A DNA stretch of 64,000 bases from contig NC_071348.1 in the NCBI RefSeq assembly GCF_027744825.2, positions 20,307,563 through 20,371,562 on the forward strand, read 5' to 3'. Of the stretch, positions 49,726 through 64,000 are shown piece after piece. Source of the stretch: Synchiropus splendidus. Taxonomy: Eukaryota > Chordata > Actinopteri > Syngnathiformes > Callionymidae. Each line of letters starts with the position of its first letter. Position 1 is the first letter of the stretch. The notes under the pieces were generated by a model, which was given only the letters and a program-made list of their open reading frames with translations, ran no database searches and had not been told where the DNA came from. A program made the translations under genes and the position numbers.

Positions 49726-50843
49726 TGTTGCTAACTTTTGAAAAACACATCAGACAGCTTAGATGTGCAACTACTAGAAAGACCCTTTCTGGTATAGTGG
49801 GAGGTGAAAATTTCATGTTCTGAAGCTTCCCTGCAAAGTTATGGCACAATGCAGACAACGCGTTTTCAGCCTGAGATGAGGTCGATTCTGGAACGCCAAA
49901 CATAAAAATGTTGATAACTTTCGAAAAACACTTCAGACAGCTTAGATTTGATGTGCAACTGCTAGAAAGACCCTTTCTGCTATATTGGGAGGTGAACATT
50001 TCATGTTCTGAAGCTTCCCTGCAATGTTATGGCACAATTCAGAAAACGCGTTTTCAGCTTGAGATAAGGTCGATTCCGGAACGCCAAACATAAAAATGTT
50101 GATAAATTTCGAAAAACACTTCAGACAGCTTAGATTTGATGTGCAACTACTAGAAAGACCCTTTCTGCTATAGTGGGAGTTGAAAATTTCATGTTCTGAA
50201 GCTTCCCTGCAAAGTTATGACACATTGCAGAAAAAGCGTTTTCAGCCTGAGATAAGGTCGATTCAGGAACGCCAAACATAAAAATGTTGAAAACTTTCGA
50301 AAAACACATCAGACAGCTTAGATGTGCAACTACTAGAAAGACCCTTTCTGGTATAGTGGGAGGTGAAAATTTCATGTTCTGAAGCTTCCCTGCAAAGTTA
50401 TGGCACAATGCAGACAACGCGTTTTCAGCCTGAGATGAGGTCGATTCTGGAACGCCAAACATAAAAATGTTGATAACTTTCGAAAAACACTTCAGACAGC
50501 TTAGATTTGATGTGCAACTGCTAGAAAGACCCTTTCTGCTATATTGGGAGGTGAACATTTCATGTTCTGAAGCTTCCCTGCAATGTTATGGCACAATTCA
50601 GAAAACGCGTTTTCAGCTTGAGATAAGGTCGATTCCGGAACGCCAAACATAAAAATGTTGATAAATTTCGAAAAACACTTCAGACAGCTTAGATTTGATG
50701 TGCAACTACTAGAAAGACCCTTTCTGCTATAGTGGGAGTTGAAAATTTCATGTTCTGAAGCTTCCCTGCAAAGTTATGACACATTGCAGAAAAAGCGTTT
50801 TCAGCCTGAGATAAGGTCGATTCAGGAACGCCAAACATAAAAA
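49726..50843 (+). repeat. Higher-order repeat, 3 monomers (559 bp), two copies
   Basis: Two near-identical 559-bp blocks, three units minus 5 bp. The missing 5 bp gives AGCTTAGATGTGCAACTAC instead of AGCTTAGATTTGATGTGC, near 49757 and 50317. The indel shows the trimer was copied as a block, next to the transposon insertion. Confidence 0.88.
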
Positions 50844-51218
50844 TGTTGAAAACTTTCGAAAAACACTACAGACAGCTTAGATTTGATGTGCAAGTACTAG
50901 AAAGACCTTTTCTGCGATAGTGGGATTTGAAAATTTCATGTTCTGAAGCTTCCCTGCAAAGTTATTGCACAATGCGTAAAACGCGTTTTCAGCCTAAGAT
51001 AAGGTCGATTCCGGAACGCCAAACATAAAAATGTTGATAACTTTGGAAAAACACTTCAGACAGCTTAGATTTGATGTGCAACTACTAGAAAGACCCTTTC
51101 TGCTATAGTGGGAGGTTAAAATTTCATGTTCTGAAACTTCCCTGCAAAGTTATGGCACAATGCAGAAAACGCGTTTTTAGCTTGGGATAAGGTCGATTCC
51201 AGAACGCCAAACATAAAA

Positions 51219-52906
51219 ATGTTGATAACTTTCGAAACACACTTCAGACAGCTTATATTTGATGTGCAACTACTAGAAAGACCCTTTCGGCTATTGTGGG
51301 AGGTGAAAATTTCATGTTCTGAAGCTTCCCTGCAAAGTTATGGCACAATGAGTAAAACGCGTTTTCAGCCTGAGATAAGGTCGATTCCGGAACGCCAAAC
51401 AAAAAAATGTTGATAACTTTGGAAAAACACTTCAGACAGCTTAGATGTGATGTGCAACTACTAGAAAGACCCTTTCTGCTACAGTGGGAGGTTAAAATTT
51501 CATGTTCTGAAGCTTCCCTGCAAAGTTATGGCACAATGCAGAAAACGCGTTTTCAGCCTGAGATAAGGGGGTTTCCGGAACGCCAAACATAAAAATGTTG
51601 ATAACTTTGGAAAAACATTTCAGACAGCTTAGATTTGATGTGCAACTACTAGAAAGACCCTTTCTGCTATAGTGGGAGGTTAAAATTTCATGTTCGGAAG
51701 CTTCCATGCAAAGTTATTGCACAATGCAGAAAACCTGTTTTCAGCCTGAAATAAGGTGGGTTCCGGAACGCCAAACATAAAAATGTTGATAACTTTGGAA
51801 AAACACTTCAGACAGCTTAGATATGATGTGCAACTACTAGAAAGAGCCTTTCGGCTATTGTGGGAGGTGAAATTTCATGTTCAGAAGCTTCCCTGCAAAG
51901 TTATGGCACAATGAGTAAAACGCGTTTTCAGCCTGAGATAAGGTCGATTCCGGAACGCCAAACAAAAAAATGTTGAGAACTTTGGAAAAACACTTCACCC
52001 AGCTTAGATGTGATGTGCAACTACTAGAAAGACGCTTTCTGCTACAGTGGGAGGTTAAAATTTCATGTTCTGAAGCTTCCCTGCAAAGTTATGGCACAAT
52101 GCAGAAAACGCATTTTCAGCCTGAGATAAGGTGGTTTCAGGAACGCCAAACATAAAAATGTTGATAACTTTGGAAAAACATTTCAGACAGCTTAGATTTG
52201 ATGTGCAACTACTAGAAAGACCCTTTCTGCTATAGTGGGAGGTGAAAATTTCACGTTCTGATGCTTCCCTGCAAAGTTATTGCACAATGCAGAAAACGCG
52301 TTTTCAGCTTAAGATAAGGTCGATTCCGGAACGCCAAACATAAAAATGTTGATAACTTTGGAAAAACACATCAGACAGCTTAGATTTGTTGTGCAACTAC
52401 TAGAAAGACCCTTTCTGCTATAGTGGGAGGTTAAAATTTCATGTTCGGAAGCTTCCATGCAAAGTTATTGCACAATGCAGAAAACCTGTTTTCAGCCTGA
52501 GATAAGGTGGGTTCCGGAACGCCAAACATAAAAATGTTGATAACTTTGGAAAAACACTTCAGACAGCTTAGATATGATGTGCAACTACTAGAAAGACCCT
52601 TTCGGCTATTGTGGGAGGTGAAAATTTCATGTTCTGAAGTTTCCCTGCAAAGTTATGGCACAATGTGTAAAACGCGTTTTCAGCCTGAGATAAGGTCGAT
52701 TCCTGAACGCCATACAAAAAATGTTGATAACTTTGGAAAAACACTTCAGACAGCTTAGATGTGATGTGCAACTACTAGAAAGACCCTTTCTGCTACAGTG
52801 GGAGGTTAAAATTTCATGTTCTGAAGCTTCCCTGCAAAGTTATGGCACAATGCAGAAAACGCGTTTTCAGCCTGAGATAAGGGGGTTTCCGGAATGCCAA
52901 ACATGA
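51219..52906 (+). repeat. Higher-order repeat of about 7 monomers (about 1314 bp)
   Basis: Units with AGCTTAGATGTGATGTGC and a GATAAGGGGGTTTC end occur at 51407 and again at 52721, an offset of 1314 bp (seven units minus 2 bp). Neighbouring TTCGGCTATTGTGGGAGG units precede each one. Confidence 0.7.
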
Positions 52907-55319
52907 AAATGTTGATAACTTTGGAAAAACACTTCAGACAGTTTAGATTTGATGTGCAACGACTAGAAAGACCTTTTCTGCTATAGTGGGAGTTAAAAAT
53001 TTCATGTTCTGGAGCTTGCCTGCTAAGCTATGGCACAATGCAGAAAACTCGTTTTCAGCCTCAGATAAGGTGGGTTCCGGAACGCCAAACATAAAATTGT
53101 TTATAACTTTGGAAAAACACTTCAGACAGCTTAGATTTGATGTGCAACTACTAGAAAGACCCTTTCTGCTATAGTGGGAGGTTAAAATTTCATGTTCTGA
53201 AACTTCCCTGCAAAGTTATGGCACAATGCAGAAAACGCGTTTTTAGCTTGGGATAAGGTCGATTCCAGAACGCCAAACATAAAAATGTTGATAACTTTCG
53301 AAACACACTTCAGACAGCTTATATTTGATGGGCAACTACGAGAAAGACCCTTTCTGCGATAGTGGGAGGTGAAAATTTCATGTTTTGAAGCTTCCCTGCA
53401 AAGTTCTGGCACAATGTAGAAAACGCGTTTTCAGCTTTAGATAAGGTGGGTTCCGGAACGCCAAACATAAAAATGTTGATAACATTGGAAAAACACTTCA
53501 GACAGCTTAGATTTGATGTGTAACTGCTAGAAAGACCCTTTCTGCTATAGTGGCAGGTGAAAATTTAATGTTCTGAAGCTTCCCTGCAAAGTTATGCCAC
53601 AAAGCAGAAAACGCATTTTCAGCCTGAAATTATTTGGGTTCCGGAACGGAAAACTTAAAAATGTTGATAACTTTGGAAAAACACTTCAGACAGCTTAGAT
53701 TTGATGTGCAACTACAAGAAAGACCCTTTCTGCTATAGTGGCAGGTGAAAATTTCATGTTCTGAAGCTTCCCTGCAAAGTTATACCACAAATCAGAAAAC
53801 GCGTTTTCAGCCTGAGATAAGGTGGGTTCCGAAACGCGAAACATAAAAATGTTGATAACTTTGGAAAAACACTTCAGACAGCTTAGATTTGATGTGCAAC
53901 TACTAGAAAGACCATTTCTGCTATAGTGGCAGGTGAAAATCTCATGTTCTGAAGCTTCCCTGCAAAGTTATGGCACAATGCGAAAAACGCATTTTCCGCC
54001 TAAGATAAGGTCGATTCCGGAACACCAAACATAAAAATGTTGATAACTTTGGAAAAACACTTCAGACAGCTTAGATTTGATGTGCAACGACTAGAAAGAC
54101 CTTTTCTGCTATAGTGGGAGTTAAAATTTTCATGTTCTGAAGCTTGCCTGCTACGTTATGGCACAATGCAGAAAACGCGTTTTCAGCCTGAGAGAAGGTG
54201 GGTTCCGGAACGCCAAACATAAAATTGTTTTTAACTTTGGAAAAACACTTCAGACAGCTTAGATTTGATGTGCAACTGCTAGAAAGACCCTTTCTGCTAT
54301 AGTGGGAGGTTAAAATTTCATGTTCTGAAGCTTCCCTGCAAAGTTATGGCACAATACAGAAAACGCCTTTTTAGCTTGGTATAAGGTCGATTCTGGAACG
54401 CCAAACATAAAAATGTTGATAACTTTCGAAACACACTTCAGACAGCTTAGATTTGATGTGCAACTACTAGAAAGACCCTTTCTATTATAGTGGGAGGTGA
54501 AAATTTCATGTTCTGAAACTTCCCAGCAAAGTTATGGCAGAATGGAGGAAACGCACCCGTTTTCAGGATGAGAAAAGGTGTGTTCCAGAACGCCCAACAT
54601 AAAAATGTTGATAACAATGGAAAAACACTTCAGACAGCTTAGATTTGATGTGTAACTGCTAGAAAGACCCTTTCTGCTATAGTGGGATGTGAAAATTTAA
54701 TGTTCTGAAGCTTACCTGCAAAGTTATGCCACAAAGCAGAAAACGCATTTTCAGCCTGAAATAAGGTGGGTTCCGGAAAGGAAAACATAAAAATGTTGAT
54801 AACTTTGGAAAAACACTTTCATGTGCAACTACTAGAAAGACCCGTCCTGCTATAGTGGGAGGTGGAATTTTCATGTTCTGAAGCTTCCTTGCAAAGTTAT
54901 GGCACAATGCGATAAATACGTTTTCAGCCTGAGATAAGGTCGATTCCGGAACGTAAAACATAAAAATGTTGATAACTTTGGAAAAACACTTCAGACAGCT
55001 TAGATTTGATGTGCAACTACTAGAAAGACCCTTTCTGTTATAGTGGGTGGTGAAAATGTCATGTTCTTAAGCTTCCCAGCAAAGTTATGGCACAATGCAG
55101 AAAACGCGTTTTCAGCCTGAGATAAGGTCGATTCCGGAATGGCAAACATAAAAATGTTGATAACTTTGGAAAAACACTTCAGACAGCTTAGATTTGATGT
55201 GCAACTGGTAGAAAGACCCTTTCTGCAACATTGGCAGGTGAAAATTTCATGTTATGAAGCTTCCCTGCAAAGTTTTGGCACAGTGCAGAAAACGCGTTTT
55301 CAGCTTGAGATAAGGTCGA

Positions 55320-56646
55320 TTCTGGAACGCCAAACATAAAAATGTTGATAACTTTGGAAACACGCTTCAAACAGCTTAGATTTGATGTGCAACTACTAGA
55401 AAGACCCGTTCTTATATAGTGGTTGGTGAAAATTTCATGTTGTTAAGTTTCCCTGCAAAGTGATGCCACATATCAGAAAACGCGTTTTCAGCATGAGATA
55501 AGGTGGGTTCCGGAACGCCAAACATAAAAATGTTGATAACTTTGGAAAAACACTTCAGACAGCTTAGATTTGATGTGCAACTGCTAGAAAGACCCTTTCT
55601 GCTATAGTGGGATGTGAAAATTTCATGTTCTGAAGCTTCCCTTCAAAGTTTTGGCACAGTGCAGAAAACGCGTTTTCAGCCTCAGATAAGGTGTGTTCCG
55701 GAACGTCAAACATAAAAAAGTTGATAACTTTGGAAAAACACTGCAGACAGCTTAGATTTGATGTGCAACTACTAGGAAGACCATTTCTGCTATAGTGGCA
55801 GGTGAAAATTTTATGTCCTGAAGCTTCCCTGCAAAGTCATGGCACAATGCAGAAAACACACTTTCAGCCTGAGATAAGGTGGGTTCCAGAATGCCAAACA
55901 TAAAAATGTTGATAACTTTGGAAAAACACTTCATACAGATTAGATTAGATGTGCAACTACTAGAAAGACCCTTTCTGCTATAGTGGGATGTGAAAATTTC
56001 ATGTTCTGAAGTTTCCCTGCAAAGTTATGGCACAATGCAGAAAACGCGTTTTCAGTCTGAAGAAAGGTCGAGTCCGGAACGCCAAACATAAAAATGTTGA
56101 TACCTTTGGAAAAACACTTCAGACAGCTTAGATTTGATGTGCAACTACTAGAAAGACCCTTTCTGCTATAGTGGGATGTCAAAATTTCATGTTCTGAAGC
56201 TTCCCTGCAAAGTTATGGCACAATGCAGAAAACGCGTTTTCAGCTTGAGAAAAGGTCGATTCTGGAACGCCAAACAAAAAAATGTTGATAACTTTGGAAA
56301 CACGCTTCAAACAGCTTAGATTTGATGTGCAACTACTAGAAAGACCCGTTCTTATATTGTGGTTGGTGAAAATTTCATGTTGTGAAGTTTCCCTGCAAAG
56401 TGATGCCACATAGCAGAAAACGCGTTTTCAGCCTGAGATAAGGTGGGTTCCTGAACGTCACACATAAAAATGTTGATAACTTTGGAAAAACACTTCAGAC
56501 AGCTTAGATTTGATGTGCAACTGCTAGAAAGACCCTTTCTGCTATAGTGGGATGTGAAAATTTCATGTTCTGAAGCTTCCCTGCAAAGTTATGGCACAAT
56601 GCAGAAAACCCGTTTTCAGCTTGAGATAAGGTCGATTCTGGAACGC
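55320..56646 (+). repeat. Higher-order repeat, 5 monomers (940 bp), cut by the ERV
   Basis: The variants GGAAACACGCTTCAAACAGC and GACCCGTTCTTATAT with GTGGTTGGTGAAAATTTC recur 940 bp apart (about 55350 and 56290). The second copy is interrupted at 56646 by the retroviral LTR, so the duplication most simply predates the insertion. Confidence 0.75.
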
Positions 56647-56951
56647 TGTTGTATATACTGGAAAATCGAAAATATTATAATCAAAACTTGCTCAGTGATA
56701 TTTGAAATTGTTTGTCATTTTTATCATTGATTTTGATGTTTGAACTTTAGTGAACTTACATGCCTTTGAACGTGAACTTTTGAAGTCATGAACAAGTGTG
56801 TGCTTTGAACTTAAATTGAACTTGTAAACAGGATGTGCTGACCGGATGTGGTGAACCGCTAGGCACTGCTGACGCAAATGAAACTGGATGTGATTAACCG
56901 CCGGAACACGCCATCCATTTATGGGCATGTCATCAAAACCAGCTGTGTTGC

Positions 56952-56959
56952 TATAAAAA
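56952..56959 (+). promoter_or_regulatory. LTR TATA box (TATAAAAA)
   Basis: TATAAAAA in GTTGCTATAAAAACGCTC. Transcription would start about 25-30 bp downstream, near GACACAGAGGTCCC. It is the only canonical TATA box correctly placed relative to the poly(A) signal and primer binding site. Confidence 0.65.
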
Positions 56960-57319
56960 CGCTCTAAAATGTGACACAGAGGTCCCTTTTTGCTTTTTGG
57001 CTTCATCCGTTTGCAGTAAGGTCTTGTATCTTAACTTATGACGATGCTCTTGCTATTGCTCTCAGACTATTTGATTTAATTAATTTTTATCGTTCTCTTA
57101 TTATTTTTTGATTTATTTCTTTTTATTGTATGAATTTTGATTATATGAATTTTGAAGTATATGTATTAATACCAGCGTCTCACGGTACTTTTGATATTGT
57201 TGGGTATCAGCGTCTGGCAATACCCTTGAGTTTATGGAGTTTATTGTTCATTATTGATTTTATTGTTTTTATTATTCTTTTATCAATTTTTTGAAGAAAT
57301 ACTTTTGTAACAAAAACAT

Positions 57320-57325
57320 AATAAA
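57320..57325 (+). terminator. LTR poly(A) signal AATAAA
   Basis: AATAAA in AACATAATAAAATTGAG, about 365 bp downstream of the TATA box and inside the LTR, where the R region should end. Confidence 0.55.
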
Positions 57326-57905
57326 ATTGAGTACGAATTATGTACTGAAAAGGCACAACGGCGTTGATACCTGACTGCTAAAAAATCAACTGGCTCCTGT
57401 ACTACCATCAATTGGGTTGTAGGTGAGTTACTGTTTGATTTCCTCCTGTTCCTCACATGTAGTGAATGTCTCAAAAGGTAGCATTATTCCATCCTGAATT
57501 ATTGTGTCAATGATAAGGTGGTAGTTTTAGACAGTTATGGGGAAATATGTAATTTAAAAGGAATTGATGTAGGATCCGATCATGAGTCCCTAAACGAAGT
57601 TAAGTAAAGAGACTACGGTAAGAGGTGTAGCATTGTAAGGTCAAGAACCTGTTTCTTAACAGGTCGGGCTAATTAAATAACCCGCTCAGTGAAGCGCCGA
57701 CACTACTCACTAATATAATGAGGTGAGGTTGATACCCTTATTATAGTGTTAGAACCGTGCCCGCAACAAGAGGCTGACTGAGTTGACCACCGAGGGGCCC
57801 TTTACCAGAGAGACAAAGGGAGGTAGTGTGCTCGGAACTAAGGACGGCTTATGTTATAGCCAATTGCCTTGTACACAAAACCTTGAAAACCTAAACCCGA
57901 CGACA

Positions 57906-57923
57906 TGCCGCCCGAACAGGGAC
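57906..57923 (+). other. Primer binding site, tRNA-Lys type
   Basis: TGCCGCCCGAACAGGGAC differs by one base (third position, C for G) from the 18-nt site complementary to the 3' end of tRNA-Lys(UUU), the primer used by lentiviruses and MMTV-like viruses. It lies directly after the CA end of the LTR, as required for minus-strand DNA synthesis. The mismatch is probably decay after insertion. Confidence 0.85.
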
Positions 57924-58355: not shown

Positions 58356-60050
58356 ATGGAAATGAGCAAAAAGGTTGTGCCTGAAAGTGGTGGAGCTCTT
58401 ACGAGAAGAGCTTCCATAGCCGAATCTGAGGTTGTGACTGCTCCCCCTGATATGTGGGTAATCGGGTCCTTTCTGATAATCGATACGCGATTAGAAAATC
58501 AGGAATTATGGGATATCCTGCCCTTCGGTTCGTATACACTTCTGAACCCACGAAGGTGTCCAAGACCTACCGATAGTGCGGGTGTAGCTCGATGGGTAAA
58601 AGAAGTTTTGAATAAAAAAGTAAAGGAGTTTGATCAAAAGCACCCTGAGGACTGGGCCCCAGGTGAGGCGCTTCCTTTGCACACAGGGGAGCTGAAATTA
58701 CAAACGATATCAATGGCCCATTACTTGCCCTACGATGTCAAGAACCCCGAGGGCTCCTTTAAGAGGCTTTCGAGCACTTATTATAACTCCCTGGCCCATG
58801 CTAAAACGTGGGCTGTCATAGTTCCCGTCTTTGGGACCGGAGTGTTTAATTTCCCTCTCGAAAAAGCAGTGGAAATTTGTCTCGATCATACTCAAGACTG
58901 GGTAAAACGTCACTCTGAACTTGACCGAATGGTGGTCCTCTTGGCCCCCGAGGCTGGGCTACGGCAGGAAATTATCCAACAACTGAGACAGCGAATTGAG
59001 GTGAATCCAGTGAAAATTCAGGAATATGCAGCGTCTCGCAGTTGTCCGCTTGACGCGACCTTGGTTGTTGGTCTAATGAGGAGGCCCGTAGTGAGCAAGT
59101 TATATAAGGAGTCTATCCATGACCATGCCACAGGGAATATTACTGAAAGTTTTGTGATTCAATACCAGCGCTACCCTAGCCCTGCTAAGCCGGGGGTTTA
59201 TCCCCGTGGTGAACTCCAAGAAGCTCAAACGATGTACCAAGCAACTGGTCCGTTACCCCTGACAAATAAGGGACCATTGGACACTGCGTTACAAGGGATA
59301 GCCAATCTTCCGACTGCGCCACCCGCCTATGAAGCCGGCACAGCCCTTAGGGACCATGGCTATGCTACGCCAGCGAGGGTCCGCTTTTCTGAGCTGTCAG
59401 AAAATGACCCCGATGAAGGAGAATCCCTGAGCCTGAGTGAAACCGACAAAGACGTCATTACAAGGAGTCTGGAGAAAATGGCAGAGCTACTTAGTGCGAT
59501 AACGCAACAAATAGAAAGTCAACAGGATCAGCTCAACAGGAGTTTGAGTCAGGGAGGATTAGAATGCATTTTAGGTTCCCAGGAAAATCGCCCGCAACCT
59601 ATACAACCATTCAATCCTTCTGATGGCTCAATAGGGGCCTCAGATCTCGACGCCTCAGAAAACCCTGATGTCAGAGACCTAGGGTCGAGTGAGCCAGCCT
59701 TGGGTGATGTCCCAGTCATTAGAATGGATAATGGATCCATGTTTGTTATCTTACGCACTTCAACGGCCAAATACAAGCCAACTGGGGACAATGTAGTGAT
59801 CCCCATAAGAAAGTGGAATGGACTGGATGAAGTCAGGGCATTCACTCCGTGGAAAAAGAAAATTGGTAAAAAGGATTTCGATCACCGTGTCTCACTTTTG
59901 AGTGAAGAGGTTCGTAACCGAAATTACCGAGCCCTAGAGCACGTCCATCAATTGGATTTCACTGAGTGCGAAGATTCCCCCGTAGCCACCGTCTGTTTGA
60001 CGCCACTGATCCCTGGGAACAGGGACTATCATCCCTGTTCCCAGGGATGA
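58356..60050 (+). pseudogene. gag: ERV gag, 5' portion: macro-like domain, late domain, truncated capsid region
   Basis: A 564-codon frame. The ATG has a good context (AAAATGG). Residues about 33-215 resemble a macro domain. After a degenerate nucleotide-binding loop (LNPRRCPRPTDSAGVARWV, 62-80), GEALPLHTGELK (103-114) aligns with the G.A..T.G.L strand, and PVFGTGVFNFPLEKAVEI (157-174) matches the second loop (P..STGVFGYP.E.AA.I). Residue 2 is Glu, so there is no myristoylation signal. PTAPPAY at 319-325 combines PTAP and PPxY late domains, which recruit TSG101 and NEDD4-type ligases for budding. Residues about 362-398 look like a coiled coil. The C-terminal part (450-550) may be the capsid start but is not recognised. 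Native gag ends between 60008 and 60026; the last residues come from the rearranged LINE junction. Gag identity is from position and late motifs; the macro call is from motif pattern. Confidence 0.8.
59310..59330 (+). other. Overlapping late-budding motifs PTAP/PPxY in gag
   Basis: Encodes PTAPPAY, in which the last proline of PTAP starts the PPAY motif. It lies between the macro-like domain and the coiled coil, the usual zone for retroviral late domains. Confidence 0.85.
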
Positions 60051-60097
60051 TAGTCATCCACTATCATCCCTGGGAACAGGGATGATAGTGGATGACT
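60025..60097. repeat. Stacked perfect hairpins at the LINE breakpoint
   Basis: Two overlapping inverted repeats. One has 30-bp perfect arms (60025-60054 and 60060-60089) with a 5-nt loop. The other has 20-bp perfect arms (60052-60071 and 60078-60097) around GGGAAC. TCCCTGGGAACAGGGA occurs at 60010-60025 and again at 60067-60082. The right part, from 60072, is ordinary LINE sequence encoding the start of reverse transcriptase. The rest looks like fold-back copies of it. Confidence 0.85.
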
Positions 60098-61769
60098 TAA
60101 AGCAGGCAGGAACATGACAGGACACCAAGGAAGCATTGAAGATGTCCGTGAACACTGGAGCCAGCTCAGCAGCACAATGATTCAGGATGGCAGGGGAAAC
60201 TCTGTCCGGACCTGCCGCCTTCCGAAGGTTCAGCTTCCTGAACTGAGTGCGCACGTCTTGCTCCATGATGTCAAGAGAAAGAGGGGGGAGGTGAGGGGGT
60301 GGCTCATCAAAAGTGACTGTGGTCTTTGCTGTCTCAGTGACATCATTGGTCTTAGTTGTGTCACTAAGAGACAGCACAGTCCTTTGTTTTAAAGTGGAAC
60401 ATGGGGCTGGAGAGACCACAGAGGTGTTGGTGCAAAATGGCTGCTCAAAGCGACAATAGAAGTTGTTGAGGTCCTGTGCAAGAGCGAGGTTGTTCAGACT
60501 GTGGGGGGCACGTGGCTTGTAGTCAGTGAGCACCTTGAGCCCTCTCCACACCGCAGCCGAGTCATTGGCTGAGAACTGCTGCGTGAGTTTGTCAGAGTAT
60601 GTGGCCTTAGCTTTCTTCAGCTCCCTCTGAAACCCATACTTCAGCTCTTTGTAGCAGCTCCTGTCCCCACTCTTGCGAGCTGCCTCCTTCTACCGTCTAA
60701 TCTGGCTGAGTTTAGCTGTGAACCAAGGTTTGTCATCTGCATAACTCACCTTGGTGCGCGTTGGAACAATGCACTCTTCACAGTAGCTGATCCATGAAGT
60801 CACAGTGTCTGTGTACTCATCCAGATTATTGGTCGCAGTCCTGAACACCTCCCAGTCTGTGGTCTCCATACAAGCCTGCAGCTCCTCTTTAGCTTCACTT
60901 GTCCAGATCCTCATGCTCCTCACAACAGGCTTTGCCAGCTTCTTCTTCTGCTTGTATGTAGGAACAAGATGAACCATCAAGTGGTCAGAGAGTCCCAGTG
61001 CAGCTCGAGGGAGGGCGGTATAGGAGTTGCGGAGCGATGAGTAACAGTGATCCAGCAAGCTCTGCTCTCTGGTGGGACATTTTACAACCTGCCTGTACCT
61101 GGGAAGCTCCTCACTCAGATTTGCCTTGTTGAAGTCACCAAGCACAATCACAGGAGAGTCCGGGAAAGTTCGCTCCACATGCAGGACCTGATCCGCGAGC
61201 GCACTCTGAGCCTCACGTACATCCGCGCTGGGCGGGATATATACGGCAGCCAGAATGAATGAAGCGAACTCACGTGGGGAGTAAAACGGCTTACAGTTGA
61301 CGATCAGACATTCCAGAGAGGGAGAGCAGTGCTGGAAGATCACCGTCACGTCCGTACACCAGCGATTGTTGATGTAGAAACACACTCCTCCGCCTTTGGT
61401 TTTGCCGGTGAGCTCTGGAACCCGGTCCGCGCGGTGAAGCTGGAAACCCTCCAGATGAAGCGCAGTGTCCGGGATGAGCTCGCTCAACCACGTCTCCGTG
61501 AAACACAAAACACAAGAGGAGGAGATGTCTCTGTTCCGTCTCAACATCAGCGCCAGTTCATCCATCTTATTGCTGAGTGAGCGGACGTTGGAGAGGATTA
61601 TCCCGGGAAGTGGAGTGCGCGATCCTCTTCGACGAAGGCGAACGAGCGCACCGGCACGTTTCCCTCTCCTCCTCAGTTTCTTCCGCCCCGCCAAAAGATG
61701 AACTAACTCCGCAACTGACACCAAAAATACTGGTAGTAAGTCAGACGGAGTCATAGCCCTGATGTTCAT
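60072..61769 (-). pseudogene. LINE endonuclease/reverse transcriptase ORF, truncated
   Basis: The frame opens at ATG 61769 or 61754. Endonuclease motifs appear in order: ILSNVRSLSNKMDEL, CFTETWLSE, GGGVCFYINNRW, VIVLGDFNKANL, LDHCYSS and [11 protein letters not shown] (catalytic Asp and His in SDH). A linker follows ([23 protein letters not shown]). A TAG stop at 60690-60692 interrupts the frame after LSQIRR. The same frame then continues with YKELKYGFQRELKKAK, the VWRGLK and DYKPRAPHSLNN motifs and the RT N-terminus (RKAAGPDRVSPAILNHCA, FTDIFNASLVSCHVPACFK, STIIPVP). It ends there, before the catalytic YADD box. Closest to the L2 clade of fish LINEs, by recall of conserved motifs. Confidence 0.9.
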
Positions 61770-61891
61770 CAACTGATCTCGTGTGTAGGAACACGCAGAT
61801 GTTCCATCAAAACAAAAAATAAACAAAATAACATGCACGGTAATTCCAGGCCAGCCTCCGTCGGCGCCATCTTGAATGATGTATATATATA
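60072..61891 (-). mobile_element. L2-type LINE, inserted in gag in antisense, 3' half missing
   Basis: Minus-strand non-LTR retrotransposon. It starts near 61880 with the GATGGCGCCGACGGAGG-type 5' end common in fish L2 elements. It then encodes an apurinic endonuclease and the first part of reverse transcriptase, and stops abruptly inside the RT domain. The rest of ORF2 and the 3' tail are absent. LINEs normally lose their 5' end, so a copy keeping the 5' end and losing the 3' end is atypical. Confidence 0.88.
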
Positions 61892-62050
61892 ATATAAGGA
61901 GTCTATCCATGACCATGCCATAGGGAATATTACTGAAAGTTTCATGAGTCAATACCAGCGCTACCCTAGCCCTGCTAAGCCGGGGGTTTATCCCCGTGGT
62001 GAACTCCAAGAAGCTCAAACGATGTACCAAGCAACTGGTCCGTTACCCCT
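61892..62050 (+). repeat. 159-bp second copy of gag sequence beyond the LINE
   Basis: Matches 59102-59260 at an offset of 2790 bp with 4 differences in 159 positions. It begins exactly at the LINE 5' end and ends where the sequence jumps to a different gag region. In the original gag frame it meets TGA at 62052-62054. The left flank of the LINE ends near 60026, so the right flank restarts about 925 bp upstream of where the left flank stopped. Confidence 0.92.
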
Positions 62051-63198
62051 CTGATTCCGACGATCAGAGTAGCGATGATTCTGGCAGTGATACTGACCCG
62101 CCACTGGGTCGGCAGCCAGACCCCCCAACTCCCTCAAGACAGGGTGGCAGGATGGCCTCCACAGGAGGGATAGGACGACAGCGTACCCAGCTGTCAGTCT
62201 CAATCCTTGCAGGGGGCCCCCCATCTGAGCCCAGACAAGACACTGATGTTAGAGTGTCAAATAAAATTACCGTAGCAGACCTGTGCAAGGCACTCGAGAA
62301 AAGGAAAGATAAGGAATCCAACTGTGAGTATGTTGGAAGATTGAATAAGGAATTGTCTCCATCTCAAATGGCTGACCCAGTTATTAATAAATATGTCTCC
62401 AAAGGGAACGGATTAGATTTAGTCCAAGGGCAGACATTGATGGATTTGCTAACCTCCGATATGGCTACTCTATTTACTAGCCAAGTAGAGGCAACCATTC
62501 GAGATCTGGTTGATAAAGTAAATAAAGGAGAGATGTCTCTTCTGCAAGCTTATTCCATACTGGCAGATGAGGGGGCTGATGAGTCGCAGGTCAAGAATTT
62601 TCTGATACAGATTAACTGCCCTGAACAAGCAAAATTGGTTCTGGAGTTCCTCCAAGCAAAGGGACTGGATGCAAAAACTGAGGTTATCTCCCGTCACAGC
62701 TCTCTTATGGCTGTGAGAAGAGCCCTCAGAAAAGAAAAAGAGAGACCGGATGTATCCGAGGCTCGACAGTGAAAAAACGAGGAGAGGGGGAAGTCTCTTC
62801 CCCCTTCTGGAAAAGTGACAGCAAACCCCCAACACGGCCCGGCTCGCACTCGATCTACCTTTCCACCGAAGAAGGATCGAAATCAGCAAGACATCTGACC
62901 CAATGGACAGGGTGGGGCCAAGCGCCCTCCATTCAACAAGAACGTGAATGGCTCAGGCACGAATGGCCCCAGACAGCCTCGTTGGAGGCAGGATCGTGCC
63001 GACAATCGACCCCAAGCAAAGGGGCAGGATCGTCCCCATCCGAAACCAGTGTCCGACGAAGACTGGAAAGCGATGACCCAGGAGCAGAAGGAAGCGGTAA
63101 TACTTGCAGCGGCTCGACGAAACCAGGATCTGGGAAGAGATTTGACCGCAGCCCAGAGGAACGTGTTGGAAAAACTCGAACCCAAAACCCAACAATGA
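62051..63198 (+). pseudogene. gag: ERV gag, 3' portion: acidic linker, capsid-like helices, basic nucleocapsid-like tail
   Basis: The frame enters with an acidic Ser/Asp stretch (SDSDDQSSDDSGSDTD) and a proline-rich linker. A helical, Leu-rich segment follows (about 62250-62700; ITVADLCKALEKRKDKE, LLQAYSILADEGADESQVKN, CPEQAKLVLEFLQAKGL) that could be the capsid C-terminal part. After TGA at 62770-62772 the same frame continues with a basic Gly/Arg/Asn/Pro-rich region, a second TGA at 62896-62898, and a C-terminal helix (EDWKAMTQEQKEAVILAAAR). It stops at TGA 63196-63198. No CCHC zinc knuckle is present and no Cys is seen in the basic tail. Its frame differs from that of the 5' portion across the 62050 junction. 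Function is inferred from position before pro. Confidence 0.75.
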
Positions 63199-63323
63199 GG
63201 CCCTATAAAGTGCAGATTTGGGCTAAAGATCATAATAGATATTGCTACTATGACACTGGATCGGACATATCCATATTACCAAAGGAATGGTTGATGAAGA
63301 ACTCGATCAGAAGATACTCGTAA
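63195..63323 (+). pseudogene. pro: ERV protease (pro), N-terminal part
   Basis: Reads MRPYKVQIWAK and then YCYYDTGSDISILPKEW. DTGSD at 63252-63266 contains the active-site Asp of a retroviral aspartic protease. It is one frame back (-1) from gag, and its ATG overlaps the gag stop (ATGA at 63195-63198). The frame runs to TAA at 63321-63323, but recognisable protease sequence moves to another frame before that, near 63280, implying a 1-base loss (or 2-base gain) there. Confidence 0.82.
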
Positions 63324-64000
63324 AATTGGCTAATGGAGACGTCGTTATGATGGCCCTAGGCAGATTTAATGGAAAAACTGTGGCGATAGGGCCTAACCCT
63401 TTATTATCTCCAAATGACTCAGAATGGATTATTGATGCCCCTTCTTCAAATTGGATGAGAGAAGTTAATAGGATTACGGCCATAGAAAAATTAGTATGTG
63501 CCTCTCACATAAACGACAAGGCATGCATAGAAAGGATCCTTTATCCGGCCGAAGTGGCCGGACTTAAAAATGATGTAGGATTAATGAAAACAGAACCATA
63601 CGTTATTAGGGGTGGCCTCCCAGGCAAACAGAAGCAGTACCCATTAGGGAAATACGAGGATCAATTGCTGGCAGTGTTTAAATAATTGGAACAATTAGGG
63701 GTCTTCGAAAAAATTAACGAACCACCCTGCTTAATGCCAATACAAGCAGTACCAAAAAAGGATGGTACCGTTAGGCCTGTCCATAACCTAAAAATGTTAA
63801 ATGACGTGACAGTGAAAGACACTACATAAATCAACAATCCCCGACAGACCATGTTAAAAATACGCCCGGGAGAATATAACTCCTGTATTGACCTAGCGAA
63901 TGGATTTTGGTCAGTCCCACTGGCCGAGGAGAGCAGGCCGAAAACCTGTTTTATGATAAAAGGACAAGGCTACATGTGGACCAGGCTGCCCCAAGGATTT
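63287..64000 (+). pseudogene. pol: ERV protease C-terminal part and reverse transcriptase start (pol), cut by window end
   Basis: Continues protease sequence (KLANGDVVMMALGRF) into the pol linker and then the RT fingers: GLPGKQKQYPLGKYEDQL, LGVFEKI, IQAVPKKDGTVRPVHNLK, the DLANGFWSVPL strand with the first catalytic-domain Asp, and WTRLPQGF at the window edge. In-frame stops are TAA at 63683-63685 and TAA at 63827-63829, each in a well-conserved surrounding, so both are likely point-mutation decay. The catalytic YxDD box, RNase H and integrase lie beyond the window. Confidence 0.9.

Follow-up and report, generated by a model that had tools for sequence, protein, structure and literature searches.

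Does the first long gene of an endogenous retrovirus (ERV) in the fish Synchiropus splendidus open with a macro domain, and, if so, what could such a domain still do at the head of Gag? The question is raised by a provirus lying in a 64,000-nucleotide stretch of contig NC_071348.1 (positions 20,307,563 to 20,371,562, forward strand), hereafter the window. An earlier note, made from the letters alone, had described a macro-like module at the N-terminus of its gag-position open reading frame (ORF; 58356-60050, 564 aa). This ORF is the first long one after the long terminal repeat (LTR), primer binding site (PBS) and leader, and lies ahead of protease-pol. The Gag of this ERV almost certainly contains a macro domain, located as follows:

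58452..59000, + strand: macro domain (Gag residues 33-215), placed by Pfam, PDB sequence matches, host alignment and fold model; outer borders approximate
58605..58880, + strand: profile match to Pfam Macro PF01661 (Gag residues 84-175)

Macro domain: membership, constraint and origin

Macro (PF01661) was the sole Pfam family above its cut-off in the window gag ORF (27.2 bits against a curated cut-off of 22; expectation value, E, 3.9e-6), and residues 84-175 matched profile positions 25-118 of 118. A fuller match was obtained with L024, a copy of another subfamily (35.8 bits; residues 73-175 on profile positions 10-118). Altogether, the cut-off was exceeded in seven of eight aligned gag copies, with 29.2-37.9 bits; L067, the most diverged of the eight, stayed under it (18.7 bits, E 0.0017). 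Genome-wide, 80 of the 106 PF01661 matches listed, host genes included, exceed the cut-off, and those listed below it are mostly L067-like copies.

Searches of PDB sequences named the same family. The window Gag matched MACROD1 best (E 4.4e-5, limited to residues 138-196), and a profile built from the eight copies found 19 chains at E<=1. Seventeen of these are named as macrodomain, ADP-ribose deacetylase/hydrolase or PARP9/14, and the remaining two are 1spv, which we take to be a macrodomain, and one bacterial surface protein; MACROD1 and MACROD2 are the nearest solved sequences. In NCBIfam the matches were all weak and below cut-off, and five of the six families carry names that refer to ADP-ribose functions. 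An alignment-free fold model of the domain, of low confidence, returned macrodomains in all 13 best Foldseek rows, none individually significant. A VIA search with the model also placed macrodomains in its top rows, and Chikungunya macro structures were among the structural matches (Foldseek/VIA). The ORF from 58356 contains every macro motif quoted in the earlier note, in the stated sequence and in its reading frame, and the end that the note gave to the module (59005) agrees with the domain end.

Chance similarity or convergence could be argued from the window match being limited to profile positions 25-118, from L067 and from the low confidence of the fold model. It was rejected, since Pfam (seven of eight copies), PDB sequence matches and the alignment-free model concur on one family, and we consider it hardly credible. 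No Pfam matrix or Gag family matched in the window or L024 gag, which by itself still leaves room for a retroviral matrix; on this result a known matrix was set aside as the identity of the domain.

The expectation that other ERV copies would share this gag was confirmed: the genome holds at least 77 gag copies (77 matches scored of 204 candidates). They fall into subfamilies with about 95-98, 78-83 and 70-72% identity to the window, and the macro domain is present in each of the three. A search with the L067 domain listed 128 matches; 90 of them cover 210 or more of the 214 residues, and of these 90, 66 are stop-free. The eight-copy alignment (domain identity to the window 73-97%) leaves out L022 (stop), L004-L019 (TGA stops) and further near-identical copies. 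The scans covered L021 without its 3' half.

Selection was estimated as the ratio of nonsynonymous to synonymous substitution rates (dN/dS; Nei-Gojobori) in 10 pairs among seven copies, drawn from an alignment of 11 copies in which one L003 stop was set to X. Between the subfamilies farthest apart the domain shows purifying selection. The dN/dS values of the pairs window v L067 and L024 v L067, in this order, were 0.191 and 0.187 over residues 33-215, 0.570 and 0.574 over the linker (residues 216-320), and 0.210 and 0.238 over residues 321-553. Domain values in the other pairs were 0.235 (L020 v L067), 0.290 (window v L024), 0.356 (window v L023), 0.346 (L020 v L024), 0.369 (L021 v L024), 0.466 (window v L020) and 0.544 (window v L021); window v L003 gave no ratio, since synonymous changes were absent from the domain in this pair. 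The ratios being lowest for far pairs and reaching 0.54 in nearer ones, constraint stands out most between the copies farthest apart. For window v L024 the synonymous rate was 0.53 in the domain against 0.17 in residues 216-320, an about threefold variation along gag, which suggests a mosaic history or recombination between subfamilies.

The earlier note had proposed that the lineage captured the domain. A macro domain does head Gag. When the eight-copy profile was run on 14 host-side macro loci of this genome, no score exceeded 10 bits (E 0.011 in that small set), so no recent capture is visible. None of the 14 loci looks like a close donor, and recent capture of a host gene was set aside within the scope of these 14. 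Protein searches with the gag region and the domain, singly or as an alignment, found no relative in collections without other fish genomes, and neither did IMG/VR scans with gag and with reverse transcriptase (RT).

Pocket residues and candidate function

Pocket residues were read from a whole-domain alignment of the eight gag copies with three macro domains encoded by the host, in which the following positions are relevant:

58512..58514, + strand: Asp53, opposite the GDIT Asp of the host domains; invariant in all eight copies
58545..58589, + strand: loop 1, residues 64-78 (NPRRCPRPTDSAGVA); degenerate form of NAAN...GGG
58830..58856, + strand: loop 2, residues 159-167 (FGTGVFNFP); kept

In known ADP-ribose binders the GDIT Asp contacts adenine. 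In every copy loop 1 retains Asn64, which opens the NAAN motif, and the Gly that closes GGG. The NAAN position itself reads N-P-R-R or N-P-R-S throughout, so that Pro and Arg occupy its middle and the last Asn is replaced by Arg or Ser, and a loop-1 Cys is invariant. The GGG position reads [SG][AT]G, then [VI]-A, in all eight. Loop 2 follows the pattern FG-T/P-GVFN-F/Y-P, with both glycines invariant and the intervening residue Thr in seven copies and Pro in L021. The description of loop 1 as degenerate, given in the earlier note, is upheld by the alignment with host domains, and loop 2 is kept.

MacroD enzymes carry a catalytic Asp following GGG, and this position is Ala in every gag copy; an intact NAAN together with the catalytic Asp, the mark of a MacroD hydrolase, was found in none of the eight. 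Catalysis is unlikely and binding possible, because NAAN/GGG is degenerate and the catalytic Asp is Ala, with Asp53 and loop 2 kept. An active ADP-ribosyl hydrolase removing PARP marks, as alphavirus and coronavirus macro domains do, could be proposed from the MacroD hydrolases being the nearest solved sequences; given the Arg/Ser and Ala substitutions at catalytic positions, it was set aside and is very improbable. Since Asp53, the first Asn and the loop-2 glycines are kept and the rest is degenerate, a reader or a scaffold would be likelier than a hydrolase, as judged from the sequences. Binding without hydrolysis, as the earlier note read the domain, is a reasonable proposal.

We tentatively favour, at somewhat less than even confidence, a non-hydrolytic ADP-ribose reader at the matrix position. 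ADP-ribose tags are marks used by cells in antiviral defence. According to this proposal, about 215 N-terminal Gag residues hold the macro domain where other retroviruses have matrix. Asp53 and loop 2, the adenine and phosphate holders, would still shape a pocket, and with NAAN mostly gone and the GGG run lost, catalysis would be unlikely. Through such a head Gag could be anchored, on entry or during assembly, to host proteins or RNA that bear ADP-ribose; alternatively, the head could shield ADP-ribose marks set by interferon-induced PARPs.

The same residues bear on two non-reader explanations. The macro fold may serve as a structural scaffold only, a globular stand-in for matrix during Gag assembly or in contacts with Env that binds no ADP-ribose. 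The degenerate loop 1 of all eight copies, the matrix position and the weak constraint in some copy pairs (dN/dS) speak for this possibility; the invariance of the loop-2 glycines and of the adenine-site Asp among copies 73-97% identical to the window speaks against it, and we regard it as a real though doubtful option. Less probable still, and in our view unlikely, is a pocket retooled for another ligand, with viral RNA or membrane phosphoinositides bound by the Arg-rich loop 1 (NPRRCPRP), as is usual for matrix domains. The Pro and Arg in the middle of NAAN, the invariant Cys, the lack of a Gly2 for myristoylation in the Gag sequence and the lack of a CCHC knuckle in the Gag stretches scanned would suit such a ligand, whereas loop 2 resembles that of the ADP-ribose-processing MACROD1/2.

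Provirus, gag frame and genomic copies

Around the macro domain the following features were distinguished:

56647..57905, + strand: 5' LTR (TGTTGT...ACGACA), 1259 bp; partner 3' LTR beyond the window at C15:20382293-20383507
57906..57923, + strand: PBS tgccgcccgaacagggac, read from the sequence; of tRNA-Lys type
58356..60008, + strand: 5' part of gag, residues 1-551, up to the junction with a long interspersed nuclear element (LINE)
59310..59330, + strand: overlapping PTAP/PPAY motifs (PTAPPAY), residues 319-325, present as a sequence motif
60009..62045, - strand: antisense LINE insertion, about 2.0 kb, with endonuclease PF03372
62046..63198, + strand: 3' part of gag, in the window copy with stops inside it; ends with the gag TGA at 63196-63198
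63195..64000, + strand: start of pol (ATG at 63195-63197) with a protease-like DTGS, broken by a frame change and running past the window

The provirus, an old and broken copy, spans 19,299 bp, the LINE of about 2.0 kb included, and is flanked by a 4-bp target duplication (ACGC). Its LTRs, of about 1.2 kb, differ by a Kimura two-parameter distance of 0.056, and the gag ORF starts about 450 bases past the 5' LTR. The element sits in a satellite array with a 188-bp unit (about 50092-56646 and L068:5508-6000), of which 34 copies were counted in the stretch searched from 50000 on.

Homology of the window gag to the 29 other copies compared ends at 60008 in all of them and resumes at 62046 in 28 and at 62354 in L021. 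The last 13 residues of the ORF are not gag, because homology stops at 60008. Some 0.77-0.85 kb of gag, which probably belonged to the capsid region, has given way to the LINE. PTAP and PPAY are motifs with a late-domain role. Downstream of the LINE, 62245-62769, a candidate capsid piece, gave a helical model of low confidence (predicted local distance difference test 53, predicted template modelling score 0.35). The downstream half of L024 gag matched no Pfam family over cut-off and no PDB entry at an E below 0.08, and no CCHC knuckle was found in the Gag stretches scanned. In other copies the gag frame stays open for as many as 1218 aa, and for more where it continues into pol without a stop; in the subfamily with the 1218-aa frame, gag stops at the start of pol in four of five junctions read, and the fifth (L077) reads into pol.

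The gag TGA and pol ATG overlap as ATGA (63195-63198), with pol one frame off. Foamy Pol has its own start, and the overlap would be in line with a foamy-type separate Pol start. RT, RNase H and integrase were found in L031. In a PDB sequence search the partial RT beyond the window matched best 7o0h (Pr125Pol, 3.7e-16), which we take to be of simian foamy virus, and then 7ksf (2.1e-15); Ty3 (7q5b, 9.2e-10) and an MLV-type Gag-Pol (8wus, 1.6e-5) followed. Entry 7ksf is the prototype foamy virus (PFV) protease-RT, according to PMC8402755. Pr125Pol also came first, weakly, for the RNase H piece (9.3e-4), and the integrase was undecided between 3kkr "Integrase" (2.8e-7) and the PFV integrase (4.6e-7), the latter being the longer match. 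By the best PDB sequence matches of its partial RT, the provirus is placed as foamy-like. Between integrase and the env-like region lies a 541-aa ORF (L031:2128-3753) with a basic tail and a Cys-rich centre, at the position that acc3 occupies in fish foamy-like endogenous retroviruses (FLERVs). Neither this ORF nor the env-like and other 3' ORFs gave a Pfam match over cut-off.

Three further observations concern other copies. (i) In the L067/L078/L079 subfamily, gag leads directly into integrase at two junctions read (integrase matches under the Pfam cut-off), and protease and RT are apparently missing, yet a frame of 1187-1189 aa is open in many copies. Several L067-type copies at C1:39.85-40.19 Mb lie on the same strand, with four intervals of 13,055-13,065 bp, resembling a tandem provirus array. 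(ii) In L062 and L063 (C4, C5) a LINE frame on the same strand, open for 1710 and 1465 aa, enters gag in frame at residue 138; the gag part shows 78% identity over 415 residues, which makes a LINE-gag chimeric ORF at two places. (iii) The TGA-bearing copies L004-L019 are spread over many contigs, several of them lying no more than a few Mb from where a contig ends, and eight copies read directly (L004-L007, L010-L012 and L014) share an identical TGA in the macro domain; L004-L019 likely spread by segmental duplication after the stop mutation.

Comparison with known systems

Giant FLERVs of ray-finned fishes (AciFLERV and AliFLERV, proposed as "Gigantospumavirus") are described in PMC5512871 as 17.4 kb long, with a Lys PBS and extra genes, and PMC6431247 repeats a size of about 17 kb. 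The present provirus fits this type in its size (19.3 kb with the LINE), tRNA-Lys PBS and foamy-like RT, as far as these descriptions go; by position it also has an extra ORF between pol and env, where that type carries acc3 and acc4. Unlike here, no macro domain is mentioned for gag in the accessible text of PMC5512871, in which gag is annotated by position. The domain could make the Gag of these giant foamy-like viruses recognizable by sequence, where that text names it by position alone.

The earlier note knew of no retroviral Gag with a macro domain. For fish ERVs in general a precedent exists: PMC4977317 states, citing Basta et al. 2009, that they occasionally carry CNPase or macro-domain ORFs. 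Those ORFs likewise place a macro domain in a fish ERV and could overlap with the present one; as described there they are additional ORFs of epsilon-like elements, whereas here the domain heads a foamy-like Gag. For a macro domain in foamy-like Gag no description was found in the literature searched, most subscription papers being outside its scope.

Viral macro domains in replicase proteins counter PARP defence. Fused to Gag, the domain would be stoichiometric in the particle, at the matrix position, which would make it possible to ask directly whether retroviruses have faced ADP-ribosylation as a restriction. It is conceivable, though on balance unlikely, that a giant foamy-like fish retrovirus lineage swapped its matrix head for an ADP-ribose reader, many copies of which per virion would steer capsids by host PARP signalling or hide them from it; no earlier viral macro domain would then have had a structural role in the virion.

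The Gag of mammalian foamy viruses is alike in having no CCHC knuckle (here, in the stretches scanned) and a pol start of its own overlapping gag; it is not known to carry a macro domain. The macro domains of MACROD1/MACROD2 and PARP9/PARP14 share with the gag domain the family, the adenine-site Asp and loop 2, and differ in that NAAN/GGG is degenerate in gag; similarity to the host macro loci examined is very low. Alphavirus, coronavirus and hepevirus macro domains are likewise virus-encoded and sit in non-structural replicase proteins, whereas that of the present provirus lies in a structural protein.
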